Source: Candidatus Cloacimonetes bacterium HGW-Cloacimonetes-2 (GTDB lineage Bacteria; Cloacimonadota; Cloacimonadia; Cloacimonadales; Cloacimonadaceae). From it: 64,000 nucleotides of DNA. The notes below the pieces were generated by a model. It saw nothing but the letters and a program-made list of their open reading frames with translations. It was not told the origin of the DNA and did no database searches. The position numbers and the translations under genes were made by a program. Numbering within the stretch: position 1 is the first letter of the stretch; each line of letters begins with the position of its first letter. The DNA is taken from NCBI GenBank assembly GCA_002842035.1, contig PHBP01000011.1:1-64000 (forward strand). Direction: 5' to 3'. Positions 9,785-41,741 of the stretch are shown here, in pieces.

Positions 9785-9861
9785 ATCAAGCCGATATCAA
9801 GAGCAAATCAAGTCGAACCCGGTTCGACTTGAATTGCTCTTGAATTGCTGGTGATCTGCTT
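9785..9861. repeat. 11-bp-periodic palindromic repeat, copy B
   Basis: Seven consecutive 11-bp units: ATCAAGCCGAT, ATCAAGAGCAA, ATCAAGTCGAA, CCCGGTTCGAC, TTGAATTGCTC, TTGAATTGCTG, GTGATCTGCTT. The centre is a perfect palindrome, with 11-base arms CAAGTCGAACC (9809-9819) and GGTTCGACTTG (9821-9831) around one C. The right-hand units are inverted versions of the left-hand ones. It lies between convergent genes and shares its units with copy E at 29672-29748. Confidence 0.9.
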
Positions 9862-9982
9862 TAGACCATAGGGATTCAATCGGGTCACACCCAGGAACAG
9901 GTATCACAAAGACACTATGTATAGAAATGATAGATCGATCCTGTAGATAAAGTTTAATTGATTGATAAGAATGGTGTTGAGC

Positions 9983-11755
9983 TTACTTCTTGAGATGCTC
10001 GTGCAGGAAGTCGTGGTAGTCCTTGTTATTAAAGACCAGCTCTTCGTAACTTCCTTTGTGGCAATGGCCTTGAGAATCGATGTAGAGGACGCTGTCGATA
10101 TAACGCAGGGTCGAAAGACGATGCGAGATCACTATGGCGCTGATGCCCTCATAGTGCTTGTCTATATCGTTCCAGAGCTTTTCCTCATTCTCAGCATCCA
10201 GAGAGGCAGTGATGTCGTCCAGTATCAGCAGTTCAGGCTTCTTTGCCAAAGCTCTGGCAATGGTAATCCGCTGTTTCTGTCCGCCTGATACACCCAAACC
10301 TCTTGATCCGACTATGGTCTCGTCCTTCATCGGGAAGTCACCTATCTCAGCTTTGAGCTGAGAAGCTTGCACGGCAGTGTCGTAATCTTGATTGGATAAG
10401 TCTTTGGAGACAAAGCCAATATTATGCCTGATGCTGCCACCAAAGAGTACAGGCTCTTGCGGTACGAAACCGATCATTTCCCGGAAACTGGCAAGATCAA
10501 TCTGATCGAGGTTTGTACCGTTTACCATTATGCTGCCGTGGTTGGGCGGAACTAGCCCTGCCACCATATTGGCAATAGTGGATTTCCCTGCTCCGGTAGA
10601 GCCGAGGATCAGCATACGCTCGCCTTTCTTGAGCTCAAAGCTGCAGTCCCGGATCACAGGCTCCGTCTTATCAAAGTATTGGCAATCAACTCCTTGGAAG
10701 GTTAGGCTTTCAAAGCTGCTGAGCTGCTCTCCCATCTGTCTTGCTTCACAGAAGCTGGGCTCATCCTTCATCTCCTCCAAACGGTCGATATTGACGAAAG
10801 CCTGCTTGCCCGAAACGAAGAGCTGAGGCAGATCCAGCAAGGGATAGATCATCATACTCATATAGGTGTAAAAAAGGAAGAAGGTGCCGACCGAGATCTG
10901 CCCCTTGACTGCCATATATCCACCAAAGAGGATGACCGCGATCTGAGCAAAATAGTCGATATACTCATATATCAGATGCAGGATGGCATTGAGCTTTACG
11001 ACGCTCATCTCTGTCTTGAAGCGTTTTGCCAATGCTATGTCAAAGAAGCGGTTATACTTCTCTTCTGAAACAAATGCTTTAACTATTCTGATCCCGGAAA
11101 AGCTCATCTCAAGCTGGGAATTGATATCGCTGATAGCGCGTTGATTGCGCTCAAAGTTCTTGTAAAGCCGATCCGATGTAAGATAAAACACAGCCATCAT
11201 CAGAGGCAGAGGTGAGATCGAAAACAGGGTCAGCTTCCAATTGATCGAAAACATCACAGCCAAGCTGAAAGCTATCATACTGAATGAGTTAAAGGCTCTA
11301 AATATACCGGAGCAGAGGAACCAACTGATCTTGGGGAATTCAGATAGGTCATCCGTGAGACGGGTAACAATATCACCGGTACGGTATTTCTGGAAGAATC
11401 TATAGTCTTTCTTGGCTATAAAGCGGAAGTAAAAGAGCCTGAGAGCGTGTTCAAACCTAAGATTGACCAAGGCTCTGAAAGAGGGATAAAAGCCCGTGAT
11501 CAACTGAGCCGATCCTATTGCCAAAAAGAGCATAATCACGCGCCATATCTTGTCCATTGCAGCCTTGTATTGGACGGGATCGGCTTTGAGTATCTCTGCA
11601 GCGGGAAGATCCTTGAGGATATCGATCAAACTGCGGAAGATCATAGGGAAGGCGATAGATACAGCAGAAGAGAGCAATGTAAAGAAGACCATTATCACGA
11701 TGAACCACTTCTGAGTAGCCCATTGACGGAAGATCCAGCGAAGGTTCTTATTCAC
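9983..11755 (-). CDS. ABC exporter half-transporter, degenerate-NBD subunit
   Basis: A membrane domain with six segments (residues 1 to about 315) is followed by a nucleotide-binding domain. The Walker A is LGSTGAGKST, the signature is VSGGQ, and the Walker B reads LLILDDITASLD, where the usual catalytic Glu is Asp. I place the start at the GTG at 11755 because GGAGG lies six bases upstream; this gives an eight-base overlap with the upstream ABC gene and about 590 residues. The partner has Glu at this position but a non-canonical signature. That is the asymmetric-site pattern of heterodimeric exporters such as TM287/288. The substrate is unknown. Confidence 0.9.
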   Translation of the reverse strand: MNKNLRWIFRQWATQKWFIVIMVFFTLLSSAVSIAFPMIFRSLIDILKDLPAAEILKADPVQYKAAMDKIWRVIMLFLAIGSAQLITGFYPSFRALVNLRFEHALRLFYFRFIAKKDYRFFQKYRTGDIVTRLTDDLSEFPKISWFLCSGIFRAFNSFSMIAFSLAVMFSINWKLTLFSISPLPLMMAVFYLTSDRLYKNFERNQRAISDINSQLEMSFSGIRIVKAFVSEEKYNRFFDIALAKRFKTEMSVVKLNAILHLIYEYIDYFAQIAVILFGGYMAVKGQISVGTFFLFYTYMSMMIYPLLDLPQLFVSGKQAFVNIDRLEEMKDEPSFCEARQMGEQLSSFESLTFQGVDCQYFDKTEPVIRDCSFELKKGERMLILGSTGAGKSTIANMVAGLVPPNHGSIMVNGTNLDQIDLASFREMIGFVPQEPVLFGGSIRHNIGFVSKDLSNQDYDTAVQASQLKAEIGDFPMKDETIVGSRGLGVSGGQKQRITIARALAKKPELLILDDITASLDAENEEKLWNDIDKHYEGISAIVISHRLSTLRYIDSVLYIDSQGHCHKGSYEELVFNNKDYHDFLHEHLKK

Positions 11756-13508
11756 TCTTATCCTCCGAGAGCATTTGCAGTTCAACCAGTTTGCGGTATT
11801 CTTCCGAAGTCTGCATCAACTCATGGTGATTTCCTCGGTCGATGATCTCGCCATCTTTGAAGAAGAGGATTTGATCAGCCTCGAGGACAGAGGTAAGCCT
11901 ATGCGCCACGATCACGGCAGTCTTGCCTGAAAGTACAGTCTTCATGGTGCGTTGGATCTTGGCTTCAGTCTGCGGGTCAATCGACGCAGTAGCCTCGTCC
12001 ATAATGATCAGTTCGGGATGAAAAGCCAAGGCTCTGGCAAAAGAAATGAGCTGTTTCTCACCTTGAGAGATGTTCTGCCCACGCTCTGCCAGCTCTGCAT
12101 CCAAGCCCAGCTCTTGATTGTGGATAAACTCGTCAAGCTGAACGATGTTTATAGCCTTGTGCACGTCTTCATCCGGCACTTCGTCGTTGTAAACTCTTAC
12201 ATTCTCCAGGATTGAGCCGGGGAAAAGGAAGATATCCTGCAGGATGAGTCCGATCTTGGAGCGCCAGGCTCGAAAGTCCAGAGAAGAAAGCTCCTGTCCA
12301 TCGATCAGGATGTGTCCTTTTTGGATGGGATAAAAGCCGCAGAGCAGGCTGATCGCAGTCGTCTTACCGCTGCCTGATGCACCGACAAGGGCAAGTTGGC
12401 TTCCCTTGGGTATGGTAAAGCTAACGCCCTTGAGAATCCACTCTTCATCTTTATAGGCAAACCAGACGTCTTCAAAGACGATTTCGTGGTCGAAGCTTGG
12501 CTGTTTTGAGCCTGTAAAGAGCTCATCCTCAGTACCCAGTTCGGTAAGCTCCAGTATTCTTTTCAGAGATACAAAGGATCTCTGGATCTGCATTACGTTC
12601 TCGGATATGTGCATAAGAGGCCAGATCATCCTGTACATGTATTGCACAAAGATGATCAAAGTACCCAGGGTAATTGCCCCCACCAGTATCTTGGGAGCGG
12701 AAATCAGGATGATAGCCACCACAAAGACGACGTTGAAGATGAACATGAAGACACCCTGAGAACCGTACTCAATAAAAGATGTCTTGGTCTCAAGATTCTT
12801 CTTGGCCTTTGAGGATTCTTCCAGCTCCTTGATCACCCGCTCTTCCTGATTCAAGACTTGGATCAACTGCATACCTTGCACATAATCGGTAATCTTTGCC
12901 GTGATATCAGCATAACGCTCGCGGATACGCTTGTAAAACTTGGATAGATACTTGATTAGAAACCAATACACTACAATGGAGACCAAAATGGCAGGCACCA
13001 TCAGGGCGGTGATCCCGGGCTCCCTGGTAAAGAGAACCACAAACACACCAACAAAGAACAGCATATTTCCGATTATCATTATGGAAAGCTCGCTAAAGAG
13101 CACTTTCACCCGCTCGCTATCGCTTTCCACCCTGGCAATCAGCTCGCCTACGGGTTGTTGGTTAAACCAAGGTATGGGGAGCTTGAGAAGGTGCTTGAAG
13201 ACGCTTGACTTAAACTGAGTAATGATCTTGATTCCCAGCCTTGAGAGCAGCACGATCTGCAGATATGATAATAGACCGGAAAAGATTACCACGACAACAA
13301 AGAAGATACCGTAGCGAAACATCTCTGTAAGGTCGTTGTTTGGAATGCTCTTGTCTATGATATGAGCCAGGATGAGGGGATCAAGCAGCCTTAGTGCCGA
13401 GGTCACAAGCATCGCAAAAAGACCAAATAAAAGCAAGCCCTTGTCCTTCTTCACATACGGGAGGAGGAGCTTGAGGTAATTAGTTTTGGCTTCTTTGCTT
13501 TTGCTCAC
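11748..13508 (-). CDS. ABC exporter half-transporter, catalytic-Glu subunit
   Basis: The 586 residues comprise a six-segment membrane domain and an ATPase with Walker A VGASGSGKTT, Walker B LIIMDEATASID and an H-loop VAHRLTS. The signature reads ISQGE instead of LSGGQ. Combined with the Asp-for-Glu change in the downstream partner, this predicts one consensus and one degenerate ATP site, as in heterodimeric drug or lipid exporters. It is transcribed first, and its stop overlaps the partner's GTG start by eight bases. Confidence 0.9.
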   Translation of the reverse strand: MSKSKEAKTNYLKLLLPYVKKDKGLLLFGLFAMLVTSALRLLDPLILAHIIDKSIPNNDLTEMFRYGIFFVVVVIFSGLLSYLQIVLLSRLGIKIITQFKSSVFKHLLKLPIPWFNQQPVGELIARVESDSERVKVLFSELSIMIIGNMLFFVGVFVVLFTREPGITALMVPAILVSIVVYWFLIKYLSKFYKRIRERYADITAKITDYVQGMQLIQVLNQEERVIKELEESSKAKKNLETKTSFIEYGSQGVFMFIFNVVFVVAIILISAPKILVGAITLGTLIIFVQYMYRMIWPLMHISENVMQIQRSFVSLKRILELTELGTEDELFTGSKQPSFDHEIVFEDVWFAYKDEEWILKGVSFTIPKGSQLALVGASGSGKTTAISLLCGFYPIQKGHILIDGQELSSLDFRAWRSKIGLILQDIFLFPGSILENVRVYNDEVPDEDVHKAINIVQLDEFIHNQELGLDAELAERGQNISQGEKQLISFARALAFHPELIIMDEATASIDPQTEAKIQRTMKTVLSGKTAVIVAHRLTSVLEADQILFFKDGEIIDRGNHHELMQTSEEYRKLVELQMLSEDKSE

Positions 13509-13545
13509 GGTAACACCTATAGGTCAAATTGCAGTTGTAAGAACT

Positions 13546-13568
13546 ATGCTCCGGTATAGCCGGAGCAT
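13546..13568 (-). terminator. Hairpin after tRNA-Pro(CGG)
   Basis: A perfect nine-base stem (ATGCTCCGG / CCGGAGCAT) with a five-base loop lies 22 bases after the tRNA 3' end. The downstream sequence has no strong U-run, so it may be a weak terminator or a processing barrier between the tRNA and the ABC genes. Confidence 0.5.
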
Positions 13569-13590
13569 TAATATCCGAATAATCAAGTAA

Positions 13591-13668
13591 TGGTCGGGAT
13601 GACTGGATTCGAACCAGCGACTTCTCGGTCCCGAACCGAGCGCGCTAACCGGACTGCGCTACATCCCG
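13591..13668 (-). tRNA. tRNA-Pro (anticodon CGG)
   Basis: Read on the minus strand, the acceptor stem CGGGATG pairs with CATCCCG, followed by A and an encoded CCA. The anticodon arm CTCGG-TTCGGGA-CCGAG gives anticodon CGG. The T-arm loop is TTCGAAT. The D-arm is nearly identical to tRNA-Pro(TGG) at 18819-18896. The range includes CCA (13591-13593). Confidence 0.96.
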
Positions 13669-13712
13669 ACCGTATTTGGGCAAAGCTTTTCAGCCGCCAT
13701 CTTCTGTCAAGA

Positions 13713-15140
13713 CTATTCTTTGCCGATTGCTTTGAGTAGTCGCTCCGCATCCTCCGCTGTAATCTTGCCGCTTTCCAGCATCTCAAGTATCTTCAGCCGG
13801 CTTTGTTCTGCGATGTTTTCTTTCTCGGCAGCTCTGAGATCAAAGACGCCAGGAGCTACCTTGCGGATTGTTTTAAAGACCTTTTCGGTGATCTTATCAC
13901 CAAGTTCGGGATCAACCACGTGTGCAAAACCCGAGCCCATTATCTTATCTTTGAAGCCCTTGATAGACTCCGCATTGACCTTCTCCTGGAAGCTCTTGCT
14001 AAACTCCTGATAGGCATTCTGCAGATCTACTCCAATCGCCTCAACCCTGATGCTGAGCTTTTCCTTGGCATCAGCAAGATTGGGAGATTCCGCCAGTTCT
14101 TTGAGCTTGGCAATCGCTTGCTGGATGGCTTCTTTGATCTTCTCTTCCGGGATGGCATCCAAACCCTTGTTCAGATAGGTGATCAGGTTTTCCACAAGCT
14201 TTCGAATATCTTCCCTGTCTTCCAAACCCTTGGCTCCTGCCAGAGCAACTTTTAGCTGATCCAGCTTGCTGCGCAGATAGTCCAGATTGAGGTGACGGTC
14301 ATAAGCCAGCTTGATCACGCCATTCTCTGTCTTAATCTTGATAATGGCAGGATTCTCTCCTGTCTTGAGGATATAGCTGTCATCCTGCTTCTCGTATGGG
14401 ACGCCAAGTTTGTTTTTGATCACGCCCATTTCGCTCTCCGCGGTGATCTCAAATCCCCACATCTCGGGCAGAATCAGGCTGATCACACCATTCTCATTCT
14501 CAAAATTCATCCTGGCATCTTCGACCGGGAGACTTTCATAATAGATTACACCATTCTCGTTTCTGACCTCTACCTCACGAAAAGCGGAGGAACGCATCTT
14601 GATTGCGCCATTCTCACTTTCAATCTTGAGGCTATCGCCGCTCAGACCATCCGTGGAAAGTGGACCGTTTTCCATTACAACCTTGAGATCTCCCTTCAGA
14701 TTGTGGATCTTGATAGGACCATTCTCACTCTCCAGATGCATCTTGCCTGTGCAGTTCGAGAACACCGCCGGACCATTTTCCATCACCATTTCGATATCTG
14801 CTTCCACACCATTGACCGAGAAAGGATAGTTTTCCCCCTCCAGCTTCAGCTTGCTAAGCTTCGGGATCATTATTTCTATCTTGAGGACAGACATCTTTCC
14901 CCGATCAAAGCTATCATCCAGTTCATCCAGATCTATCGTGATATCGCCGGATTTATTCACAAGCTTGAAGTAGTCTTCAAAATCCTGCTCTTCTTCGTCC
15001 GATTTTACTCCAAAATTTGCTACGATGATCAGTTGATCAGTCTCTGATTGACTCACGGAGACCGGCCCCATATTGTTTACGATCTTCAGCCGATTGGCTT
15101 CGTCAAAGCTATAAGCCTTTTCAAAATAAGTAGTTTTCAT
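13713..15140 (-). CDS. DUF4097-like beta-repeat protein with helical C-terminus
   Basis: The 475 residues split in two. Residues 1 to about 285 form a repetitive beta domain in which ENG (or EMG/NNMG) recurs about every 20 residues (for example VMENGPAVFS, ESENGPIKIH, VMENGPLSTD, ESENGAIKMR, NENGVIYYE). This is typical of the DUF4097 'toastrack' fold. Residues from about 295 on are helical and end in ILEMLESGKITAEDAERLLKAIG, a SHOCT/YvlB-like motif. No signal peptide is seen. It overlaps the upstream DUF2089 gene by ATGA. Similar pairs in Firmicutes relate to envelope-stress regulation; that link is inference. Confidence 0.8.
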   Translation of the reverse strand: MKTTYFEKAYSFDEANRLKIVNNMGPVSVSQSETDQLIIVANFGVKSDEEEQDFEDYFKLVNKSGDITIDLDELDDSFDRGKMSVLKIEIMIPKLSKLKLEGENYPFSVNGVEADIEMVMENGPAVFSNCTGKMHLESENGPIKIHNLKGDLKVVMENGPLSTDGLSGDSLKIESENGAIKMRSSAFREVEVRNENGVIYYESLPVEDARMNFENENGVISLILPEMWGFEITAESEMGVIKNKLGVPYEKQDDSYILKTGENPAIIKIKTENGVIKLAYDRHLNLDYLRSKLDQLKVALAGAKGLEDREDIRKLVENLITYLNKGLDAIPEEKIKEAIQQAIAKLKELAESPNLADAKEKLSIRVEAIGVDLQNAYQEFSKSFQEKVNAESIKGFKDKIMGSGFAHVVDPELGDKITEKVFKTIRKVAPGVFDLRAAEKENIAEQSRLKILEMLESGKITAEDAERLLKAIGKE

Positions 15141-15496
15141 TTTGTTCTCCTTGTTTGAATCATGTTAAGTGCTTCATCGACCGAGATGAATCCCTCATCC
15201 AGATCATTGATTATATCGCTGAAATCAGCCTCTTCAGGCTCTGTTCCCTTGATCTGGCGAATGATCTCCGCCAGCCTGTTTTTGACGGTGGGATAAGAAA
15301 TGTTCAAGCGCTTTTCCATCTCTTTGATATTACCTTGAACCATCAGAAAAAGACGCACGAAATCAAGCTGCTGAGCGTTTAGAGCGGCAAACCAAGAGCT
15401 CTCGAAGCTACCCCTCAAGCTGAGATCACAGTGCGAGCAGTATAGTTCCTTCACCTCGAGGTGATTGTGACAAACCGGACAATTTGCTATCTTCAT
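15137..15496 (-). CDS. DUF2089 family zinc-ribbon/HTH regulator
   Basis: With the ATG at 15496 (GAAGG five bases upstream) the protein has about 119 residues; an in-frame ATG at 15514 is an alternative. It begins with a zinc ribbon (CPVCHNHLEVKELYCSHC), then LDFVRLFLMVQGNIKEMEKRL followed by the helix-turn-helix-like NISYPTVKNRLAEI, both hallmarks of DUF2089. The C-terminal ILDLDEG-like segment (INDLDEGFISVDEAL) mirrors the C-terminal helix motif of the next gene's product. It probably binds DNA and regulates this two-gene operon or envelope genes (inference). A good promoter lies at 15534-15561. Confidence 0.85.
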   Translation of the reverse strand: MKIANCPVCHNHLEVKELYCSHCDLSLRGSFESSWFAALNAQQLDFVRLFLMVQGNIKEMEKRLNISYPTVKNRLAEIIRQIKGTEPEEADFSDIINDLDEGFISVDEALNMIQTRRTK

Positions 15497-15533
15497 ATGA
15501 ACCTTCAATCTCATTATTGACTATCTGAAGACT

Positions 15534-15561
15534 AATATAATCAGCACCTAAGAAATGTCAA
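15534..15561 (-). promoter_or_regulatory. Sigma-70-type promoter for the DUF2089 operon
   Basis: On the minus strand, TTGACA (15561-15556) and TATATT (15539-15534) are separated by 16 bases. The -10 box is 38 bases upstream of the chosen DUF2089 start codon. Both boxes are near consensus. Confidence 0.65.
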
Positions 15562-15607
15562 GCTCTATTTTAATTTTTTTAATAATGGCTCAAGCCAGCA
15601 GTTCAGA

Positions 15608-15767
15608 TTCTTAATTCACGGGTAAAGGGACTGCATTTCCCAATACGCTTTAAAGCCTTATCTATAGCGCTATTTCCCCTACCCGCTCCTTAAGAATGGC
15701 CGGGAGATTCCCGGGAGATTCCCGGGTGTTCCCCGGGTGATTCCCAGGTCGCGACCTAGGGATCGCC
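15608..15767. repeat. 11-bp-periodic palindromic repeat, copy C
   Basis: The tandem core consists of GGGAGATTCCC (15702-15712 and 15713-15723), GGGTGTTCCCC (15724-15734), GGGTGATTCCC (15735-15745), then AGGTCGCGACC and TAGGGATCGCC. Most units are themselves near-palindromes. The left flank (about 15608-15696) is an imperfect inverted repeat with arms ATTCTTAA...CGGGTA and TACCCG...TTAAGAAT. It lies between the end of the outer-membrane protein gene and the DUF2089 promoter. No ORF is seen. Confidence 0.85.
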
Positions 15768-15861
15768 TGCCCAATGCCTGACTTTGACCTGCGAGTTCTA
15801 TAGGGAGGCTAAAGTCTTGTAGAGATGATAGTAGAGGTTAGTTTTCCAGGAGATTAACAAC

Positions 15862-15887
15862 AGTGCCGACTGGAATCAATCGGCACT
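15862..15887 (-). terminator. Hairpin downstream of the 15924-17672 gene
   Basis: A perfect eight-base stem AGTGCCGA / TCGGCACT with a ten-base loop lies 36 bases after the stop codon. There is no long U-run, so termination strength is unclear. Confidence 0.5.
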
Positions 15888-15923
15888 ATAGTATTATATT
15901 ACAGATAAATAAGTATTACTTAG

Positions 15924-18613: not shown

Positions 18614-18720
18614 TTATTTCTCCATAAGAAAATACAATTGCAGCCTGAGGGGGTGAATATGCCAAGATGGGGGATTTGGTCAAGGGAAATATCAGGGGAA
18701 TGAGGCAGGACTGAAGAGAG

Positions 18721-18796: not shown

Positions 18797-18818
18797 ACTG
18801 CTATATACATTGTTTTAC

Positions 18819-18896
<78 letters not shown>

Positions 18897-19077: not shown

Positions 19078-19117
19078 GATCAATTAGGATAAAAAGAGTA
19101 TTATCAAGGAGATAGAA

Positions 19118-19294: not shown

Positions 19295-19304
19295 ATCAAT
19301 CTTG

Positions 19305-25814: not shown

Positions 25815-25893
25815 ACTCACAATCATTCTTCCCTGCTTGAATGCTTGGGTGATCCCCTGGTGATCCCCTGGTGATCCTCTTGTGAGTACCAAG
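25815..25893. repeat. 11-bp-periodic palindromic repeat, copy D
   Basis: The core units are GAATGCTTGGG (25839-25849), TGATCCCCTGG (25850-25860 and 25861-25871), TGATCCTCTTG (25872-25882) and TGAGTACCAAG (25883-25893). Outer arms ACTCACAA (25815-25822) and TTGTGAGT (25880-25887) are exact inverted copies, and GCTTGG/CCAAG pair within them. It lies between convergent genes, about 20 bases after the ferredoxin stop and 95 bases after the phosphatase stop. Confidence 0.88.
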
Positions 25894-25988
25894 GAATCGC
25901 CAATGTAGTGTGAAGGATTCACGGCAGTATTCAAAAGGAAGGCAGAATGGATGAAGGCGGTCTTAGCCAGGATACTCAATATATCCCG

Positions 25989-27905
25989 TCAGTGCTTGGG
26001 GTGGGAAAACTCAATGACCAGTATTGTAATGTCGTCGTATTGTTTATCAGGATTGGAAAATTTGCGTGCAGCGCTCAGGATCGCCTTGGCAGTGGTTTCG
26101 GGATTGGGATTCTGAAGCTTGGCGATTGTCTCCTCAAGGCGTTCTATCCCAAAGAAGTTTTCACTGCTACTCATCGACTCGGTGATGCCATCGGTTACAA
26201 GAATGATCTCATCCGTGGGATCAAGTTGCAAGCTGCTACCTCCGATCTTTAGATTAGGAAACACTCCCAATGCTGTGGAATGCGTCTCGGCAAGCTTTTG
26301 GTACTGGTTATTTGCTTTTCGGATGAATAGCGGAACGTGCCCGGCATTGGTATAGCTCAATCTGCCGGATTTGAGATCGATAAAACCGAGGATTATAGTG
26401 ACAAAATTTGATTCGATATTATTGCTGCACAGGAAATTATTCAGATCAGCAGCTAGTTCCTGTGGCGTCTGGAAACTGGCACCTTTGGCGCGTATATGGG
26501 TGCTTACCATCGTCATCGTCATTGCAGCCACAATCCCTTTTCCTACCACATCAGCGATAGCAAAGCAGAAGGTATTATCATCAATGGCAAAATAATCGTA
26601 CAGATCGCCGCCGATGTCCCCTGCCGGCTCTAGAATCCCATGGATTCTGAGGCAATCGTGGAACTGATTTGTCGAGACGTTTCTGGGGATCAGGTTGCGC
26701 TGGATGGTCGATGCGAAAAGAACTTCGGTCATTATGCGGTTTTTTTCTTCGGTAGTCTTTCGCAGGTTTTCGATATAATCCGAGAGTGAATCTCTCATCG
26801 TCTCGAATGAATTGGTAAGCATCTGTAACTCATAGAAATCGCTGGAATGAGGGATCACAGTATCGAAATCTCCGGAGCCCACTCGTTCCACAGCGGCTGT
26901 GAGTGCTGAAAGTGGTTTATTGATGTGCCTGATACGCAATAAGAGTATTACAGCAAGCAAGAGAAAAGCAATTGCAGATGCAATACCCTGGATCAGAGTC
27001 AGTAGATTCAGATCCCGGAAGATGGTCCGCTCACTCATTAGCACTGCCAAAGACCAACCGTTGGATTTGAGCGGAGCGTAGGTAATCCAGTAATCCTCAA
27101 ACATATGCTTACCGCCCAGTTTCTGCACACCGCTACGTCCATAGATCATATCCTGCCCTATCTTGCGCAGTTCTTCATCATTGTATTCTTCTGCCAGAGA
27201 GAATATGCCGTAATTCATTACCAGACTATCGATCTGGCTGGAAACGAATGTGCCGTTGTTGGTGAGGAGTAGCATCTTACCGATTTGTTGGCGAGAGTCG
27301 GTACTGATCATCTGCTGTAGTTTTGAAAGCTGGGTATCGAGCCGCAGGATGCCGATGTATCGACCATTACTGATTATCGGAATAGAATATGAACTGATCA
27401 GAGTCTGACTGCCAGCCCTGTCATACCAGGGCTCAGACCAGCGCTGTTCACCGCTCATTATCGGTATCTGATACCAATCCTCATAGGGATATTCCTCTGG
27501 ATTAAGTATATTCACAACCAGTTCAGTATTTCTAACAAAATACACTTGGGCTCGCGGCTGATTTTGGATGCTCGGTTCATAAGCCATGCACAATGAGCTG
27601 ATGTCAGGATTTTCTCTCAGGGCTGCTGCCACCATAAGCTGAAACTGCTCTCCGGTGATCAAGCCTGCCTGCACAGAATAGCGTATATTACGGGCCAGAA
27701 GCTGGATTCTGGAGAGTTTACCCTCGATACGATTGATATTCTCATTCACAAGCAGAGAGACGGTATTTGAGGCGTTTGCTCTCATAACTCCGCTCATCAG
27801 GAAATGCGTCACAGAGATCTGCACTACCGTGATCAGTAGAATAAACAGAGAGATGAATGCCACTACCTGGTAGGTAAGGCTTTTGCTTCTGAGCCTACGG
27901 AGCAT
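25989..27905 (-). CDS. Membrane sensor with SpoIIE-type PP2C phosphatase output
   Basis: I choose the ATG at 27905, just before the end of the upstream gene, giving 638 residues. Two membrane segments (about 10-33 and 295-318) flank a periplasmic Cache-like domain of about 260 residues (with WYQIPIMSGEQRWSEPWYD). Next come a HAMP region (RHINKPLSALTAAVERVGSGDFD), a coiled linker, and a SpoIIE/RsbU phosphatase (GILEPAGDIGGDLYDYF, AIADVVGKGIVAAM, TNAGHVPLF, VTDGITE, DDITILVIE). The metal-binding Asp residues are present. It would dephosphorylate an anti-anti-sigma factor or similar target, none of which is encoded nearby. It is coupled to a solute-binding lipoprotein. Confidence 0.9.
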   Translation of the reverse strand: MLRRLRSKSLTYQVVAFISLFILLITVVQISVTHFLMSGVMRANASNTVSLLVNENINRIEGKLSRIQLLARNIRYSVQAGLITGEQFQLMVAAALRENPDISSLCMAYEPSIQNQPRAQVYFVRNTELVVNILNPEEYPYEDWYQIPIMSGEQRWSEPWYDRAGSQTLISSYSIPIISNGRYIGILRLDTQLSKLQQMISTDSRQQIGKMLLLTNNGTFVSSQIDSLVMNYGIFSLAEEYNDEELRKIGQDMIYGRSGVQKLGGKHMFEDYWITYAPLKSNGWSLAVLMSERTIFRDLNLLTLIQGIASAIAFLLLAVILLLRIRHINKPLSALTAAVERVGSGDFDTVIPHSSDFYELQMLTNSFETMRDSLSDYIENLRKTTEEKNRIMTEVLFASTIQRNLIPRNVSTNQFHDCLRIHGILEPAGDIGGDLYDYFAIDDNTFCFAIADVVGKGIVAAMTMTMVSTHIRAKGASFQTPQELAADLNNFLCSNNIESNFVTIILGFIDLKSGRLSYTNAGHVPLFIRKANNQYQKLAETHSTALGVFPNLKIGGSSLQLDPTDEIILVTDGITESMSSSENFFGIERLEETIAKLQNPNPETTAKAILSAARKFSNPDKQYDDITILVIEFSHPKH

Positions 27906-28959
27906 TGGGCACAAACCTCTTGTATTCAATAGGAGTGGTAAGCTGGCCATTCTCCAGCAGCAGGGCTTGAGCTTGGTCAAACGAGTCCTTTTGGAGCTTG
28001 CCAACTACACCGGGCTTTGCCAGTACTATATCTCTCATCTCCTGCAGCATCCAGCGCTGATGCGGTCGGTTTGCAGGGATATGGTCTCTGCGCATTATAT
28101 CCAGGACTATCTCCAGAGCTTCCTCTTCGTGGTTGATTGCATACAGCCAGCCTTCCATAGTGGCTTCGGCAAAATCTCTGCTGAGTTCTTTATTTTTGAG
28201 GAAAAACTCTTCTGTGCAGTATATACCATCCTCTGGAATATCCAGACCCTGTTCGCTCATTCTTACCAGAAACAGCTCCTCATAATCGATTCCGGCTTGA
28301 TAGATACGGTGAAGCTCGTTGTAACTCATCACGTTCATCGCATCAATCGGGCCCTTGAGAAAGAGATTGATCGAGTAATCAATCGGAATGACCTGAACTT
28401 CGAGTTTGTTCCTCTGCAAGAATATATTGGTGAGATCTCTAAATTCTGAATGCCATAGACCTATCTTTTTGTAGTTTAGATCTTCAATGCTCTCAATACC
28501 GCGCTCGCGCTTGGCAGCGAGCATCAATGAAGATTTCTGGGAGATCTGGCCTAAGTTTACCAGGAACTTACCATCTCTGTTGTGGCGCATCGCAGTAAGT
28601 AAAAACAATGTTGAGAAATCAGTACTGCCTGTACTAAGCGCCGGAATCACCGGAGCATTAGGCCCACCGTTCTGGATTATCACATCCAGGCCAAAGCGCT
28701 CATAGATACCTTTCTCAAGAGCTACATAGAAACCGGCGAACTGAGTTTGATGAGTCCATTGAGGTAAGAAACGTACAACCCGATAATCTCTTCGGGAGCG
28801 GGAATTGTAATAGTGACGATGTCCATCCGTGCTCTCAGTATCCTTTGAACTACAGCTATAGCAAGATAGGGACACAAATCCCGTCAAGAGCAATAGCAAT
28901 ATTGCTCTGATGCCAATTCTCTCAGCTTTGAAAAAACTAAACCTGAAGCGTATGAACAA
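27895..28959 (-). CDS. NMT1/THI5-like substrate-binding lipoprotein
   Basis: The 354 residues start at a TTG (28959) with GGAG five bases upstream. A signal peptide ends in a Cys-rich lipobox-like LSCYSCS (about 31-37). The rest is a type-2 periplasmic binding fold of the SsuA/THI5 class: WTHQTQFAGFYVALEKGIYERFGLDV (about 67-92), then GSTDFSTLF and a KKIGLW strand. Usually such proteins feed an ABC importer, but no permease or ATPase is adjacent. The stop overlaps the start of the sensor phosphatase, so it may present a ligand to that sensor (inference). Confidence 0.87.
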   Translation of the reverse strand: MFIRFRFSFFKAERIGIRAILLLLLTGFVSLSCYSCSSKDTESTDGHRHYYNSRSRRDYRVVRFLPQWTHQTQFAGFYVALEKGIYERFGLDVIIQNGGPNAPVIPALSTGSTDFSTLFLLTAMRHNRDGKFLVNLGQISQKSSLMLAAKRERGIESIEDLNYKKIGLWHSEFRDLTNIFLQRNKLEVQVIPIDYSINLFLKGPIDAMNVMSYNELHRIYQAGIDYEELFLVRMSEQGLDIPEDGIYCTEEFFLKNKELSRDFAEATMEGWLYAINHEEEALEIVLDIMRRDHIPANRPHQRWMLQEMRDIVLAKPGVVGKLQKDSFDQAQALLLENGQLTTPIEYKRFVPNAP

Positions 28960-29659: not shown

Positions 29660-29762
29660 GACTATCGGATATCAAAAGCAATTCAAGAGCAAATCAAGTG
29701 GAACGTCATTCGACTTGATTTCCTCTTGATTTGCTCTTGATTTGCTTTTGTCTATAGGGAAG
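29660..29762. repeat. 11-bp-periodic palindromic repeat, copy E
   Basis: Seven units in exact register: TCAAAAGCAAT (29672-29682), TCAAGAGCAAA, TCAAGTGGAAC, GTCATTCGACT, TGATTTCCTCT, TGATTTGCTCT, TGATTTGCTTT (ending 29748). Left and right halves are inverted copies. Outer flanks CTTACTGCATAGAC and GTCTATAGGGAAGCAGTAAG are also inverted with an interruption. It starts about 60 bases after the pyrG stop. Its units match copy B (9785-9861). The remainder of the gap 28960-29809 holds the sorting-domain relic and no gene. Confidence 0.9.
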
Positions 29763-31457: not shown

Positions 31458-31465
31458 AAGTCAAT

Positions 31466-33916: not shown

Positions 33917-34076
33917 TGAGACCTCCAGTTTTCTTTTTGTTATTTTCCCCAACTTTAAAGAAGAGCCTTTTTTAGTCAACTGCAATTTAGCCCTATTTTT
34001 TCTTGGCTCAGGTATCCACTCGGACGCTGATCAATCCTTAAAGCTTGCCCTGCAAGCCTTAGCACCAGGCAGTCTT

Positions 34077-34273
34077 GTCTCTCTCAAAGCAGCCACCTGT
34101 GCAGCGCCAGCGCAGCAGCTGAGAATCCCCTGTCTCACAGCAGAATCACAGGGGATTCACAGGGGCTGTACAGGTGGCTGCTTCGAGAGAGGCTCATATC
34201 CCCCTCCTTCGATGGATGCTTGTATCCTGCTTCTATCCTGCTTGAATCCTGCTTGAACAGGCATCATCGAGAT
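34077..34273. repeat. 11-bp-periodic palindromic repeat, copy F
   Basis: This is the largest copy. Outer arms of about 24 bases (34077-34100 and 34170-34193) are inverted with two mismatches. Inside are GAATCCCCTGT (34123-34133) and, in 11-bp register, ACAGGGGATTC (34148), ACAGGGGCTGT (34159) and ACAGGTGGCTG (34170). A second block follows: TGGATGCTTGT (34213), ATCCTGCTTCT, ATCCTGCTTGA twice (to 34256), ACAGGCATCAT (34257-34267). Copy A at 291-485 has the same blocks. It lies downstream of meaB; the rest of 33917-34393 shows no gene. Confidence 0.9.
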
Positions 34274-34393
34274 TGTTTCCCAATAACTTAGACACGTCGA
34301 TTGGATAGGGAAGCTGGTGACAGGGACATATTTTGGATGGCTAGAAAGCTTGCTGGGATTGGGATTATGAATCTGCTGGGGAGAGTGTAAGTC

Positions 34394-35485: not shown

Positions 35486-37630
35486 TTATGCCTGTATGGA
35501 GTAGCGCTTGAAAAGCTCTTCCATAATCGTGGTTGCAGCTTTGGGAAGCTGGGTTCCGGGACCAAAGATGGCGCTGGCGCCATGCTCGTAAAGGAAGTCA
35601 TAATCCTGTGCCGGGATTACTCCTCCGGCAATCACGATAATATCTTCGCGTCCCAGTTGCTTCAGCTCTTCCATCAATTGCGGCAGAAGCGTCTTGTGAC
35701 CTGCTGCCAGGGAACTCATACCGATGATGTGGACATCGTTTTCGACTGCCTGACGAGCTGTCTCGGCAGGAGTCTGAAACAGAGGTCCGACATCCACGTC
35801 AAATCCCATATCGGCATAGGCGGTTGCAACGACCTTGGCACCGCGATCGTGACCATCCTGCCCCATCTTGGCAATCAAGATGCGGGGACGACGGCCTTCT
35901 TCTTCGGCAAACCTATCGGTTAGCGCGCGTACTGCTTCTATCTCGTCCATATTCTGATACTCACTGCTATATACGTTGTTGATCAGTTTGATAGTGGCTT
36001 GGTGGCGTCCAAAGACTTTCTCCATAGCCATTGATATCTCTCCCAGGGAAGCTCTGGCTCTGGCGGCATCGACAGCCAGTTCCAGCAGGTTTCCGCTACC
36101 ACTCTCGGCAGCCTTTGTGATGGCATCCAGGCAAGCTAATACCTTGGCGTTGTCACGCTCGTTGCGCAGCTTGGCAAGACGGGCTAACTGAGCTTCGCGC
36201 ACTGCGGTGTTATCAACTTCGAGGATCTCCATCTGCGTCTCGTGTTCAGGCTTGTACTTGTTGACGCCCAGGATTGTATCCGCACCGCTGTCTATCTTTG
36301 CTTGTCTGCGGGCTGCAGCCTCTTCTATCCTCATCTTTGGCAAGCCGGTATCGATTGCTTTTGCCATTCCGCCCAGTTCCTCTACTTCCATTATGTGAGC
36401 CCAACTGCGCTTCATAAGCTGATCTGTAAGGCTTTCCAGGTAGTAACTGCCTGCCCAGGGATCGATCACCTTGGTGACCATCGTCTCGTGTTGGAGATAG
36501 AGCTGGGTGTTGCGGGCAATGCGTGCAGAGAAGTCAGTAGGCAAAGCAATGGCCTCATCCAGGGAGTTTGTGTGCAAGCTCTGGGTATGTCCCATTGTGG
36601 CTGCAAGAGCCTCTATGCAGGTGCGAGTGATGTTGTTGTAAGGGTCTTGCTCTGTGAGGCTCCAGCCGGAGGTCTGGGAATGTGTCCTGAGAGCCATCGA
36701 CTTCGGGTTCTTGGGATCAAAGCCTTTGATGATCTTTGCCCATAACACTCTGGCTGCACGTAGCTTTGCTATCTCCATAAAGTAGTTCATACCTTCAGCC
36801 CAGAAGAAAGAGAGTCTGGGGGCAAAGACGTCAATATCTATACCGGCTTTGATGCCGGCACGTACGTATTCCAGTCCGTCTGCAAGCGTGTATGCCATCT
36901 CCAGATCAGCCGTGGCTCCGGCTTCTTGCATATGGTAGCCGGAAATGCTGATGCTGTTGAATTTTGGCATAAAGCGGGATGTATAGCTAAAGATATCTGC
37001 AATGATCCGCATCGAGGCTTCAGGCGGATAGATATAGGTATTGCGCACCATATACTCTTTGAGGATGTCATTCTGGATCGTTCCCTGCAACTGCTCAGGC
37101 TTTACCCCTTGCTCTTCGGCGGCGACGATATAGAAAGCCATAATCGGGATCACAGCTCCGTTCATCGTCATAGAGACCGACATCTGATCCAGTGGTATCT
37201 TATCGAAGAGTATCTTCATATCCAGGATGGAATCAACCGCCACACCGGCCTTGCCGACATCACCTATCACTCTCTCGTGATCAGAATCATAGCCTCTATG
37301 AGTGGCAAGATCAAAGGCTATAGATAGCCCCTTCTGCCCCATTGCGAGGTTGCGGCGATAAAAAGCATTACTCTCTTCCGCAGTGGAAAATCCGGCATAC
37401 TGGCGTATAGTCCAGGGTCTTTGAATATACATTGTGGGATAGGGCCCCCTCAGGAAGGGAGCAATACCCGAAAGATAATCCAGATGCTTCAGTTGCTCCA
37501 GGTCTTGCTTTGTATAAAGAGGCTTTACCGGGATCTGTTCATTAGTCTTCCAAATTTTATCCGGCATTGCCTGTTGAGCTTGATCCTTGAGGAAAGCAGG
37601 TGTGATCTTTGTAAAATCAGGTGTCATCAT
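35486..37630 (-). CDS. mutB: Methylmalonyl-CoA mutase, large (catalytic) subunit
   Basis: It interconverts methylmalonyl-CoA and succinyl-CoA with adenosylcobalamin. The 714 residues fit MutB/ScpA. The TIM barrel is marked by [18 protein letters not shown] (about 70-87) and [13 protein letters not shown] (about 107-119). The C-terminal cobalamin domain has the base-off DGHDRG motif with the cobalt-ligating His (about 600-605) and VAGGVIP (about 676-682). It overlaps mutA by four bases and abuts meaB. In Cloacimonas relatives this enzyme serves propionate formation or oxidation. Confidence 0.96.
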
Positions 37631-39531
37631 TTCACCCCCATCAAGTTCAGTAAGTCATTCAAGGTAGCCACCAAGTCCGCCCGGATATGGATAAAGACGT
37701 CTATGCCTGCAGCTTTGTAGCTTTCCACCATATCTGCGGGATATCCTGCCAGGATGAGAGGCTTGCCTTTTAGGGCAACGCAAAGCTCCGGCACCAGGCT
37801 CTTGTAATTATCATCAGTGGAGCAGATGCAATATGCCGCTGCGCTACTTGCTTTGGCTGCCTTAACTGCATCTTCGACTGATGCAAAAGCCTGCGAACCT
37901 TCAACGTTGAAAGCTCCTGCCTGGAAGAACCCGGTAGAGAAGTCTGCACGTGCTTTGTATTCTGCCAAGCTGCCCATATTGATCAGCATAATGCTGGTAT
38001 CCTGAATCTGCTTGGCATTATTAACTCTTGCTCTTAGCGCTTCGATAGCCTGTACAGCTCTCAGTTTTGGCAAGGCACCGGCATCTAGGCTGACCGCTAT
38101 CTCTTCTGTGACAAGCTTACCTTGACTCGGGCTAATCGCTACTTCATCTGCAGCGGCAAACATATTGACGCCCACGAAGACATCCCTGCGTTTATTGACC
38201 GCATCGATCCGAGCTTTGGCTACTACTGCGATTCTCTCGTGGATAGTGCCTGCCCTCAGGGCTTTGATCATCCCGCCTTCCTCTTCCAGCTCCTGCATCT
38301 GTTTCCAGGCAAGATTGGCAAGTTCATTGGTAAGGCTTTCAATATAATAAGAGCCGCCTGCAGGATCGATCACCTTGTTCAGATGCGATTCCTCTGCCAG
38401 GAGGATCTGTTGGTTGCGTGCTATCCTTCTGGAGAATTCATCTCCCGGCTTGATCAGCTCGTCAAAACAGCCTATCTCCAGGCTATCTGCTCCTCCGATC
38501 ACACCGGAGAAAGCTTCTGTAGTCGTCCTGAGCACATTGGTATATATATCATAAACGCTCTTATTAAATCGCGCGCTGCGTCCGTGAATCCAGATCTTTT
38601 GAGACCGTTCATTTCCGCCAAAAGCTCTGATCATCTCTGCCCACAGCAATCTGAAGGCACGAATCTTGGCTATCTCCATAAAGAGATTCGAGCCGAGTGA
38701 GAGCTTTACCTGAAAGAGTGGGGCAATCTCATCGATGGTAAATCCCACCATCTGTAAGCCATTGATATAACCTATGGCAGTGGAGAGCACAAATGCCAGC
38801 TCCTGGCTGCTGCTGCATCCGGCTGCTTCATAGACAGTGCCGTCGATACTCATTACTCTGGTTTTGGGAGCCTTGGCAACAGCCCACTTTACAGAATTGC
38901 AGATCTGATCCCAGACCTTATCCAGAGCCATTGGCAGGCTGCCTTTTCTGGCAAACTCCCCGGTCGGATCAAAGCCAATTCCGGCCTCCAGATTCTTCAG
39001 ATCGATACTATTGGCGACTGCATATTCTTCCAGCAATTCCAGTAGCTTATGATCTTTCATATCAAGCTGGATAAACAGCGGTGCTGCAGTGATATCAACA
39101 CCTTTGAGTGCTGTTTGAAGGTCTTGCATTGTCTCGAGCTTAACTCCACCCGGGCGATCTGCTTTCGCAAGCTCCAGATTCACCGCCATCAAACCGCGTG
39201 AAAGCTCATCCAGGAGTATCTTATTGAGCTTCTCAAGATCGGGCTCCGAGCAAGACTGAGCCACCAGCCATCCTTCGTTGATTCTGCGGATGGGGTCGTT
39301 TCCCCTCTGATATGGCGCTGTGCCGGGTTCAGCCGTGCAAAAATCCAGATCCTGGATATCTTCTTTGCGATAGATCGGTTTCAGGCTGATACCTTCATAG
39401 GTCTTGGTAAACATTGCCTTGGAATAATCCGCTCCTTTGAGCGTATCCTCCACTGCTTTGAGCCACTCCTCCCAACTGGGAGGCGGAAACTCACTTAGTA
39501 AATCCAATTCGACATTTCTGTCTGTATCCAC
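37627..39531 (-). CDS. mutA: Methylmalonyl-CoA mutase, small subunit
   Basis: The 634 residues form the non-catalytic partner of MutB. The barrel motifs are retained ([25 protein letters not shown] at about 370-394), but the cobalamin domain lacks the DxHxxG motif, as expected for MutA. The start is GTG at 39531 with AGGAG six bases upstream. It overlaps mutB by four bases (ATGA). No methylmalonyl-CoA epimerase or carboxylase is encoded in the window. Confidence 0.93.
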
Positions 39532-39626
39532 TGTGTGCTCCTTTGCTTTTATATAAAATTATCTAATTCTCGTTCTTTGGAGGCAAAAAACCTAAAAAGC
39601 CCAAAACTGACAAGCACTTTTCTCTA

Positions 39627-40898
39627 TCAGTTCTGTTCCAGCAGAGCTTGCACCGGCTTCATACCGAAAGCAGAACCCTGTTGGATAGCATCCAGAATGG
39701 CTCCGCCGCCTGTAAAGAAGTAATATCCCGGGTCATTAACCGCCTTGGCAAATACACCCGGCAGGATTTCCTTGAAATCCTGGATCGTGTCTCCACCGCC
39801 AAACAGCTTCATTGCCTTCTTATTGGCATCAATCATCTGATACATCGCTTTGGTGCCTTCATAAAAAACCGGCGTCAGCCCCATCACCGCATTGACAAAT
39901 ACAGTCGCTGCATCTGCAAATATCTCACTGATCTTTCCTTCAAAGGCTTGTGGTGCTGCATCCAGGACATAGCTCAGGCTATCGCCTGGTTTCAGATCGG
40001 CTATTCTGATAGCTTTGGCGCTGCTCACCGAATCCAATTCAGCGGATTCAATTACCAAGGGCAGCTCTACGATCCGGCTTTGATAATCACCGATTTCTTC
40101 GCAAAACCTGGCTGCCTGCGCGATATCATCTGCTCCGACTCCCTTGATGCTGATCCCGTATTTGTGACAGAGATAAGCATTGTAGATTACTCCGCCCAGG
40201 ATCAGATGATCTGCTATTTTGATCAGCGAAGAAAGCGGTCCGATCTTGGTATCAAATTTCGATCCAGCCACCACCGCGACAAAGGGACGTTGCGGTTCAA
40301 AGACCTGCTGAAGATACTTGATCTCTTTTTGCAAGAGCAAGCCTGCAGCTGCGGGCATTTGCCTGGGCAAACCATAGGTGCTGGTATGTGCCTGCCAGCT
40401 GCCAAAAGCGTCATTCACATAGAGATCCGCAAAAGATGCCAGGCTAATTGCCATAGCATTGGCACTCTCGTCCTTGGCTTCCTCACCTCTGAACCATCTG
40501 GTATTGGGAAGATAGACAAAATCCACTTCCCCTGCTTTGAGCCGATCGATAGCTGCAGGGATGGCTTTCAGGTTTACGATCGGACTCTTGCCTTCCGCAC
40601 CGCAATCCGGCACTAATCCTTTGAGTTGCAGCTTTTCCTCAAGGTATGCTACGATCGGCTCCACCGCATCATCTTTACTGATATTGAATTCTCCGCTTTT
40701 CTTGTCGTAAGGGCGACCCACATGGCTCATTAGTACGGGCAATCCACCCTTTTTAAATATGTGCAGGAGAGTGGGGATTGTGGCATCGATCCGCATACTA
40801 TCCTTGATCTTGCCTTTTTTGACCACGTTATGATCCATCCTGATCAGGACGACCTTGCCCTTCATATCCATATCCAACATATTGGGAAGCTTTGGCAT
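39627..40898 (-). CDS. pgk: Phosphoglycerate kinase, divergent
   Basis: It transfers phosphate between 1,3-bisphosphoglycerate and ADP in glycolysis. The ATG at 40898 has AAGGAG seven bases upstream and gives 423 residues (family about 390-420). Motifs are shifted from consensus: RMDHNVV for the usual VDFNVP, SHVGRP, PNTRWFRGEE for ENVRF, NDAFGSWQAHTS for NDAFGTAHRAHAS, AGSKFDTKIG, GGGDT and FTGGGAILDA. The nucleotide-binding C-domain is clear. In the NDAFG motif one residue appears missing and the substrate-binding Arg seems to be Gln. A sigma-70-like promoter lies at 40932-40960. Confidence 0.9.
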   Translation of the reverse strand: MPKLPNMLDMDMKGKVVLIRMDHNVVKKGKIKDSMRIDATIPTLLHIFKKGGLPVLMSHVGRPYDKKSGEFNISKDDAVEPIVAYLEEKLQLKGLVPDCGAEGKSPIVNLKAIPAAIDRLKAGEVDFVYLPNTRWFRGEEAKDESANAMAISLASFADLYVNDAFGSWQAHTSTYGLPRQMPAAAGLLLQKEIKYLQQVFEPQRPFVAVVAGSKFDTKIGPLSSLIKIADHLILGGVIYNAYLCHKYGISIKGVGADDIAQAARFCEEIGDYQSRIVELPLVIESAELDSVSSAKAIRIADLKPGDSLSYVLDAAPQAFEGKISEIFADAATVFVNAVMGLTPVFYEGTKAMYQMIDANKKAMKLFGGGDTIQDFKEILPGVFAKAVNDPGYYFFTGGGAILDAIQQGSAFGMKPVQALLEQN

Positions 40899-40931
40899 AA
40901 TCAAACTCCTTCGAAAAATCTCATTTGTTTC

Positions 40932-40960
40932 AGTTTATTATGCTGTGATGACTTAGTCAA
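40932..40960 (-). promoter_or_regulatory. Sigma-70-type promoter for pgk
   Basis: On the minus strand TTGACT (40960-40955), 17 bases, then TAAACT (40937-40932), 34 bases upstream of the pgk ATG. It begins just after the end of the nuclease gene. Confidence 0.6.
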
Positions 40961-40966
40961 GTTATT

Positions 40967-41464
40967 TTAAGATCTGCGCCTTGCCCGGCGAAATTCCCAA
41001 GGTGGGATCGGAGCTCTATCCACCCACAAGCCCAGCCTCCCGCGTCTTGCATTTTGCTCCATCCTGGCAAGGGCAGGATCATTATTATACTTCTTGTAAT
41101 GCCATGCCAGACCTGCTTTCAGAAGCTCGTGATTCAGGCAGCGTCCATTCGGCAGATAGACCCAGCCCAATTCCCTGCCATACTGATCCTTACCTTCGGA
41201 ACGTACACTAATCTGCTTGCCAAAGATCATTTGCGAGCTAAACTGCTTTGCACGTGTGCCAAATGCCTGTCCCCTTTCCGGACAGTCGATCCCGCTAAGT
41301 CTGATTCTGAGCTCTCTTCCACGTACCAATAGCCGGAAAGTATCTCCATCCGAAATCGAGACCACCTTTCCCCTCAACACTGTATCGGCATTGCTGCTGC
41401 AAGCCCACAACAAAAGCAATAGCAGCATTGCGACCATCTTGTAGCCTCTATTGTTCAAAGCCAT
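40967..41464 (-). CDS. Thermonuclease (staphylococcal nuclease-like) lipoprotein
   Basis: The 165 residues begin with a signal peptide and lipobox-like LLWACSS (Cys about 21), then an OB-fold nuclease domain: VVSISDGDTFRL (calcium-binding Asp, about 35-46), LRIRLSGIDCPERGQ (catalytic Arg and Glu, about 54-68), DQYGRELGWVYL (second Arg, about 93-104) and GLAWHYKKY. It probably degrades extracellular or periplasmic nucleic acid. It is not obviously in an operon; its 3' end precedes the pgk promoter. Confidence 0.9.
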   Translation of the reverse strand: MALNNRGYKMVAMLLLLLLWACSSNADTVLRGKVVSISDGDTFRLLVRGRELRIRLSGIDCPERGQAFGTRAKQFSSQMIFGKQISVRSEGKDQYGRELGWVYLPNGRCLNHELLKAGLAWHYKKYNNDPALARMEQNARRGRLGLWVDRAPIPPWEFRRARRRS

Positions 41465-41621
41465 CCTCCCAAAGAAATATCAATAATAATCTCCATAGAT
41501 TCTATCTACCATCCGGCAAGATTCTGTCAACAAGTTCGTCCTAAGCCCAATGAAATCATCAGATAGTTTTGGAATAGACCTGTCGATATTTAGGGACTTA
41601 TCAATTAGAAACCCCGTTTCT

Positions 41622-41741
41622 TACCACTATCTCCCCTAAAGGAATCTCTAGTGACTCTTTAATGACTCTCTAATCGGATTAAAGTATCATTAAAGAATTA
41701 CTAATGCATCATTATAGATTCTTTGCAGGGAGAGAGTGGGG
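41622..41741. repeat. 11-bp-periodic palindromic repeat, copy G
   Basis: Seven units in register: AATCTCTAGTG (41643), ACTCTTTAATG (41654), ACTCTCTAATC (41665), GGATTAAAGTA (41676), TCATTAAAGAA (41687), TTACTAATGCA (41698), TCATTATAGAT (41709-41719). The left units are ACTCTNTAATG and the right units resemble its inverse. Outer arms (ACTATCTCCC...AAGGAATCT and AGATTCTTT...GGGAGAGAGT) pair as an imperfect inverted repeat. It lies 85-205 bases downstream of the FG-GAP gene. The rest of 41465-41826 shows no gene. Confidence 0.87.

Follow-up and report, generated by a model that had tools for sequence, protein, structure and literature searches.

What are the seven arrays, built from units in an exact 11-bp register, that lie between the genes of a 64,000-nucleotide stretch of Candidatus Cloacimonetes bacterium HGW-Cloacimonetes-2? 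This stretch, hereafter the window, corresponds to positions 1-64000 of contig C7, in a source genome of 2,507,010 bases and 14 contigs. We observe that such 11-bp arrays form dispersed families, that their placement is intergenic, and that neighboring copies are separated by an exclusion zone of defined shape. The dispersed families and their chromosomal spacing lay beyond the view of the initial annotation, which was made from the window alone. The reading that we retain tentatively, with a probability of about 0.42, is that these arrays are gene-less transposable elements, the arms of which would be phased transposase sites and the spacing of which would result from target immunity.

The 11-bp period and the intergenic setting, both claimed in the initial annotation, are borne out. 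We scanned lags 4-39 in 22-base windows with at least 18 matches. In the window, nine lag-11 runs were detected, every one within the seven sites, and the only other runs were a trinucleotide repeat at 53462-53506 (lags 9, 12, and 15) and one lag-22 harmonic at 15700. Tandem Repeats Finder also reported 11-bp units at all seven sites; its list further includes numerous weak repeats with other periods, plus a single weak 11-bp pair within coding sequence at 38468. Lag 11 dominates on a larger scale too. Indeed, the 1,203,154 bases that we read (48% of the genome, with contigs C1, C10, and C7 read whole) contain 105 lag-11 runs against at most 6 for any other lag, except the harmonic lag 22 with 27; the 836-kb subset used for the profile and Markov work contains 76, against at most 6 per other lag, except lag 22 with 17. 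Two first-order Markov copies of these 836 kb yielded no lag-11 run, and a small E. coli control, of 50 kb only, gave no run at lags 5-30. Moreover, 73 of the 76 runs lie outside open reading frames (ORFs) of at least 150 amino acids, and the other three fall within two ORFs judged spurious. We rejected a coding origin, since 11 bp is not a codon period and the runs fall outside accepted ORFs. We also dropped a common unit consensus, TG[AT][AT], drawn by eye, because the units CTAAGAGAGTA (locus L020) and GGACTTAATCT (locus L039) do not contain it.

We delineated three families, A, B, and C, whose elements are about 97-117 bp long, have no coding capacity, and exist in many dispersed copies. 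A profile search of the 836 kb recovered 31 copies of A, 21 of B, and 27 of C, and no match spans less than about 88% of its profile. Genome-wide, core patterns with at most one mismatch located at least 71 places for A, 55 for B, and 72 for C, i.e., at least 198 together, and the reversed-pattern controls of these searches gave 0, 0, and 2 matches. The ends of A and C look inverted by eye (CTCCCTTTCAA vs. TTGAAAGGGGAG), and B is palindromic. Mean divergence among copies is 32-34% for A, 20-22% for B, and 21-26% for C; a distance of at most 30 kb goes with a slightly higher similarity between copies in A (P = 0.017) and C (P = 0.0045), an effect that B does not show (P = 0.54). Exactly 11 extra bp are present in two A copies. 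Gap events number 22 vs. 847 substitutions in A, 16 vs. 486 in C (some being compensating pairs), and 0 vs. 317 in B, and we dropped the avoidance of indels as a proof of selection, since gaps do occur in A and C and only B is devoid of them. An A-B fusion with identical junction sequence is found at two places (L067:9216-9420 and L109:11340-11546), therefore the composite itself was copied. Many C copies have on their right a purine-rich tail of the TTTAACAAGGAGTAAAGGAG type (e.g., C1:159308 and L107:6064), and tail-like stretches occur twice without a C element, in inverted orientation (L111:2490 and 2964).

How are these elements distributed along the chromosome? Ordered by contig, the places (at least 198) define 185 neighbor gaps. 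Only one of these is shorter than 4 kb, 4 measure 4-5 kb, 11 measure 5-6 kb, and 32 fall at the peak of 6-7 kb, whereas 2,000 uniform placements gave a mean of 53 gaps below 4 kb and a minimum of 35. The deficit persists on C1, C10, and C7 when the real intergenic gaps serve as null (5,000 trials): one of 56 gaps is below 4 kb, whereas the trials averaged 14 and 18 (minima of 5 and 8), and 4 are below 5 kb, against 17-21 expected. Pair correlation does not exceed 0.06 below 4 kb, rises to 0.26 at 4-5 kb, 0.73 at 5-6 kb, and 2.15 at 6-7 kb, and stays near 1 beyond 7 kb, which indicates little long-range order. The exclusion acts across families A, B, and C. Insertion with an exclusion zone is expected to give this combination of a hard core and little order at long range. 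Random sequential adsorption with an exclusion of 5.5-5.0 kb predicts 21.5-23.6 elements per 155 kb, and the densest stretch, C1 94-249 kb (155 kb, chosen post hoc), holds 22 elements, 5.0-10.7 kb apart. In PMC7350765, insertions of phage Mu near its ends are described as starting slowly at about 2 kb, rising sharply at about 5 kb, and reaching the bulk level at about 7 kb, in a MuB-dependent way. This profile is close to our gap histogram, and the spacing looks like what random insertion would leave if each copy excluded others within some 5 kb, as in the cis-immunity of phage Mu.

What mechanism might leave such a pattern? The sites would be elements of about 100-120 bp without genes, of the foldback type or of the miniature inverted-repeat transposable element (MITE) type. 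Their arms, i.e., arrays of 11-bp units with about one unit per DNA turn, may serve as transposase binding sites. Their spread would have been ensured by a system with target (cis-) immunity, possibly of the MuA/MuB or TnsB/TnsC kind, which would hinder new insertions at distances below about 4-5 kb from a resident copy and in this way produce the spacing, the intergenic gaps being presumably filled by random sequential insertion. A Mu-type transposase (PF09299) was found in 11 of the 25 genomes searched, including this one, where a single such gene and an adjoining AAA ATPase gene (TniB-like) form a Mu-like module at C10 165.5-168.3 kb, in the longest element-free stretch, which is GC-poorer. 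This stretch (C10:126.6-186.7 kb, loci L238-L241) has a GC content of 0.441, whereas three other stretches of C10 have 0.477-0.485; its proteins match phage-library helicases, a DNA methyltransferase family, and ADP-ribosylglycohydrolase, and it looks like an acquired island.

Several observations weigh against an origin by transposition. Immunity is normally specific to the ends of an element, whereas here unlike families exclude each other, and fused A-B pairs, one of which makes the lone gap below 4 kb, violate the exclusion. Copies differ by 20-34% on average, and no target-site duplication was evident by eye in the flanks of the copies found by profile (31 for A, 21 for B, and 27 for C). 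The distribution over contigs is uneven for A, B, and C (P = 0.002, 0.0001, and <0.00001, respectively), as C2 holds 30 of the 55 B places and one of the 72 C places, 22 of which are on C1, and C8 and C10 hold 30 of the 71 A places. Neighboring elements can lie as far apart as 20 kb (C1), 27 kb (C7), or 60 kb (C10), pair correlation shows a small bump at 16-17 kb (g = 1.69, z = 2.6), and positions are partly shared between genera. Regarding the enzyme, PF09299 was not found in 14 of the 25 genomes, including G002, which is 87% complete and has 11-bp elements, and a search with two transposase families in 48% of the genome revealed no autonomous element bounded by ends of A, B, or C. A stretch near the Mu-like module has a weak 11-bp lag (identity 0.46), but a second candidate stretch shows no such lag (0.24), and neither of them is like A-C; therefore, the module is linked to the elements only by analogy. 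None of 14 related phage loci has an 11-bp array of its own, the single exception lying in host DNA. We rejected the Mu-like module as a direct parent on account of this unlike neighborhood and of these phage loci. Finally, the cross-family exclusion, the regional families, the old intact copies, and the shared positions fit a selected ladder of arrays at least as well, and for this reason we divided our confidence between the two readings.

Viral contigs scanned with exact patterns of the A, B, and C cores gave no match. One contig of a viral collection (L295:1-1865, compared with L071:4746-6540) carries host DNA, 99.4-100% identical to C12; it is the sole near-identical strain contig, it retains the B element, and a Mu-like phage adjoins it. 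The only Y1_Tnp (RAYT-like) gene found (L094, C2 near 456.4 kb) has other palindromes, GTCCGTCATCCTGACGGAC and GAGCGACAGGATGTCGCTC, on both sides, and we rejected for that reason an origin of the 11-bp elements related to RAYT and repetitive extragenic palindromes (REPs). Palindromes of this flanking type also occur in other intergenic gaps, e.g., in L072 and L067.

The rival explanation that survives best is that selection maintains the arrays as a ladder of chromosome architecture. A nucleoid protein bound to phased arrays every 5-10 kb or so would fold or insulate the chromosome, with phase and distance preserved as the units drift or undergo concerted replacement. We consider it somewhat less probable than transposition. 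It accommodates one exclusion rule common to unlike families, as well as strongly diverged copies that remain nearly full length. The design also exists in some related genomes. Lag-11 arrays with other units were detected in 8 of 50 pyrG (CTP synthase) loci, from other Cloacimonadota genomes (L015, L020, L032, L033, L037, L039, L042, and L047), some of these arrays being the same place twice; the remaining pyrG loci, several of them longer than 20 kb, showed no lag-11 array at the scan threshold. Among the named loci of CTP synthase relatives, 21 of 22 are Candidatus Cloacimonadota and one is a Prosthecobacter contig. In nucleotide searches of 24 relatives, two of the same genus, A and B were unmatched and C gave ten partial matches, all in G009; the C profile found one place in L041 (E = 1.4e-9).

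In favor of the ladder, positions are partly shared. Where an orthologous gene end has an array in other Cloacimonadota, one is found here within 400 bp in 12 of 26 cases vs. 116 of 922 other ends (odds ratio 6.0, P = 4e-5), the units differing at the shared places. If the gaps on both sides must measure at least 150 bp, the figures are 12/18 vs. 72/189 (odds ratio 3.3, P = 0.018), and 9/15 vs. 39/141 once collapsed to distinct ends (P = 0.014). This matched test is significant for 5' ends (6/8 vs. 36/110, P = 0.023), not for 3' ends alone (6/10 vs. 36/79, P = 0.30). For instance, the end of the gene at 25989-28004, next to the C element at 25830-25940, has arrays with other units in L032, L037, and L040, and the gene end neighboring the A element at 34201-34313 also has an 11-bp element in L039 and L047.

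The single-contig genome G011, which contains at least three families (units GTAACACTTCC, CATATCATTCC, and CATTGCTTACC), shows its own limit of 9-12 kb, which the ladder would accommodate as well. Its family with 40 places has a minimum gap of 12.1 kb; 6.4 gaps below 10 kb were expected and none occurs (P = 0.0002). The spacing of a second family of 15 places is not significant alone (P = 0.37); pooled, the two families show one gap below 10 kb against 11.8 expected, and this gap involves a two-mismatch hit. In a contiguous stretch of 440 kb, the closest two of 25 non-coding sites are 9.3 kb apart, with none of 24 gaps below 9 kb against 8.7 expected, a count that omits two lag-11 sites judged coding, the inclusion of which adds gaps of 3.3, 6.4, and 4.0 kb. 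As a separate matter, G011 also carries intergenic tandem arrays of 7, 8, and 9 bp (AACCCTCTC and AGAGGGTTG type; e.g., L080:18741-18972, L077:7259-7376, and L083:4891-4966), which outnumber its 11-bp arrays and have no comparable rate in the genome of the window.

If selection is at work, the arrays might constitute a self-spacing ladder in which the 11-bp phase and a genome-specific minimum distance are conserved, letters are replaced between genera and regions, and positions are partly shared, a version to which we give a minority weight. A phase-reading protein, or even like-with-like pairing of duplexes, could then fold the chromosome into loops of several kb. On such pairing, PMC4858203 recalls a period of 11 or 12 bp from earlier work and reports, in its own 100-bp test, that 10 bp is best and that 11-15 bp have little or no effect; because of the latter result, we keep duplex pairing only within the ladder. 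Several points go against the ladder as a whole. Long-range order is lacking, and gaps of 18-60 kb exist despite available intergenic gaps. Shared positions could correspond to insertion-tolerant sites, since gaps between convergent genes are enriched (27 of 105 elements vs. 22 of 202, P = 0.0016). The matched test fails for 3' ends alone, the binding protein is hypothetical, and a first synteny test, in which a G001 element was present in none of 41 syntenic gene pairs, lacked power.

A third possibility, improbable in our view, is that the arrays are uptake-type sequences accumulated by molecular drive, a receptor preferring arrays and the length of recombining fragments setting the spacing. 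According to PMC7811141, uptake signal sequences (USS) and DNA uptake sequences (DUS) are evenly spaced, biased toward intergenic regions, and scarce in new DNA, and the longest element-free stretch, on C10 and described above, is indeed of lower GC content. However, our elements measure about 100 bp and form several families, whereas the same source gives USS as short, of one motif, and about 1 kb apart on average. Cross-family exclusion is also hard to explain in this way.

The initial annotation had described all seven sites as palindromes; palindromy is strong at four of them. Indeed, the best ungapped Watson-Crick hairpin scores are 20 at 9785, 29 at 29660, 29 at 34077, and 22 at 41622, and only 8-9 at 291, 15608, and 25815, for a median of 7, a 90th percentile of 11.2, and a maximum of 33 in 309 control intergenic windows. 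It had also offered two interpretations, i.e., a long RNA hairpin or helically phased protein sites. In the first, the arrays would be terminators or mRNA stabilizers, 11 bp being one turn of A-form RNA, and both the strong hairpins at four of the seven sites and the enrichment between convergent genes would agree with it. However, the folding and covariation analyses that had been proposed leave the RNA structure unsupported. Family A has no consensus fold (0.0 and -0.7 kcal/mol for the two strands), the consensus folds of B and C contain no useful covariation term, and paired arms did not stand out in mutual information, a weak test with 21-31 sequences. In the hairpin arms, G-T mismatches are no more frequent than A-C ones (92 vs. 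115, the strands not being oriented by transcription). Among the 105 A, B, and C elements with genes on both sides, 20 occupy divergent, 58 tandem, and 27 convergent gaps, and orientation relative to tandem genes shows no clear bias (7 of 16 the same way for A, 4 of 14 for C). We rejected intrinsic terminators because of these divergent gaps and this lack of orientation bias, and terminators are not expected to follow a distance rule. Altogether, RNA hairpins are a very unlikely explanation, and helically phased protein sites are favored over them, a preference reached by elimination and not from direct evidence for a protein. Least likely of all is neutral replication slippage with hairpin template switching in palindromes and chance spread, which agrees with the extra 11-bp unit of two A copies but leaves unexplained the single period in unlike sequences, the dispersed families, and the exclusion zone, the latter making it unlikely as a full account.

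Within the window, unit sequence had been said to differ from site to site. This is half right: several unit types exist, but the sites at 9785 and 29660 are both family B, those at 15608 and 25815 both diverged C, and the right parts of 291-485 and 34077-34273 both A. Family A is found on the minus strand at 412-526 (three tandem GCAGGATAGAA-type units, profile score of 87.6 bits, lag-11 run 426-472) and at 34201-34313 (80.9 bits). Each of these stands beside a module F, at 291-411 (units GCATCCCCTGA, lag-11 run 312-348) and at 34077-34190 (a long hairpin, lag-11 run 34135-34167, hairpin score of 29 for the merged site), the two modules being alike by eye. Family B forms a palindromic array of TTGATTTGCTC-type units at 9772-9869 (89 bits, hairpin score 20) and occurs just past the end of pyrG at 29660-29754 (83 bits, hairpin score 29), the profile matching both strands in each case. 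Family C is represented at 15707-15806 by a diverged copy with GGGAGATTCCC units (57 bits, the weakest of the family; lag-11 run 15694-15741) and at 25830-25940, between convergent genes, by a copy with GTGATCCCCTG units (73.5 bits). A palindromic array of another type, D, with TCTCTAATGAC units, lies at 41622-41741 (lag-11 run 41642-41674, hairpin score 22), and one further similar copy was seen at L063:12480. Rfam 15, at gathering score, recognizes three tRNAs only in the window and nothing at the 11-bp sites. Judging by gene order, the block L032:7368-14884 appears inverted with respect to 25.8-34.2 kb of the window, and it ends at or near two 11-bp elements.

If immunity produced the spacing, these genomes would hold a natural, chromosome-scale record of target immunity near saturation, and the range of immunity could be measured from sequence alone in uncultured bacteria. 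If selection produced it, the phylum would possess a regular system of landmarks read by helical phase and not by sequence, and the long-standing question of what sets the size of bacterial chromosome domains could then be tested by deletions and by mapping of conformation. In both cases, period and distance outlast a unit sequence that can be exchanged, and we know of no named repeat with these properties. The titles and opening lines of abstracts listed in searches of an open-access library, which covers neither subscription journals nor preprints, contain no description of such elements.

How do these elements compare with known systems? Foldback elements have inverted ends with internal tandem units. 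Like them and like MITEs, the elements described here are short, gene-less, dispersed, and intergenic, with internal tandem units and ends that look inverted by eye; they differ by an exact 11-bp period across unlike families and several genera, by a mutual exclusion of 4-5 kb, and by the absence of a partner transposase in 48% of the genome. The ends of Mu and Tn7 carry several transposase sites each, of about 22 bp. As expected under target immunity, our elements have no second copy within several kb except in fused pairs, and they share with Mu/Tn7-type systems an exclusion zone whose edge is sharp near 5 kb and which gives way to the bulk level near 7 kb (PMC7350765). They differ from these systems by their 11-bp units, by the lack of genes between the arms, and by a resident Mu-like module that is unlike A-C. 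REPs and bacterial interspersed mosaic elements (BIMEs), associated with RAYT, are likewise numerous intergenic palindromes in one genome but have, to our knowledge, neither an 11-bp unit nor a distance rule. USS and DUS show the same even spacing and intergenic bias but are far shorter, with one motif and a spacing of about 1 kb (PMC7811141). Finally, operators of the CarH-type MerR regulators consist, according to PMC9304148, of tandem 11-bp direct repeats bound on one face of the DNA. These operators comprise three to five units of one motif at a promoter, whereas the arrays described here occupy hundreds of places and are often inverted.

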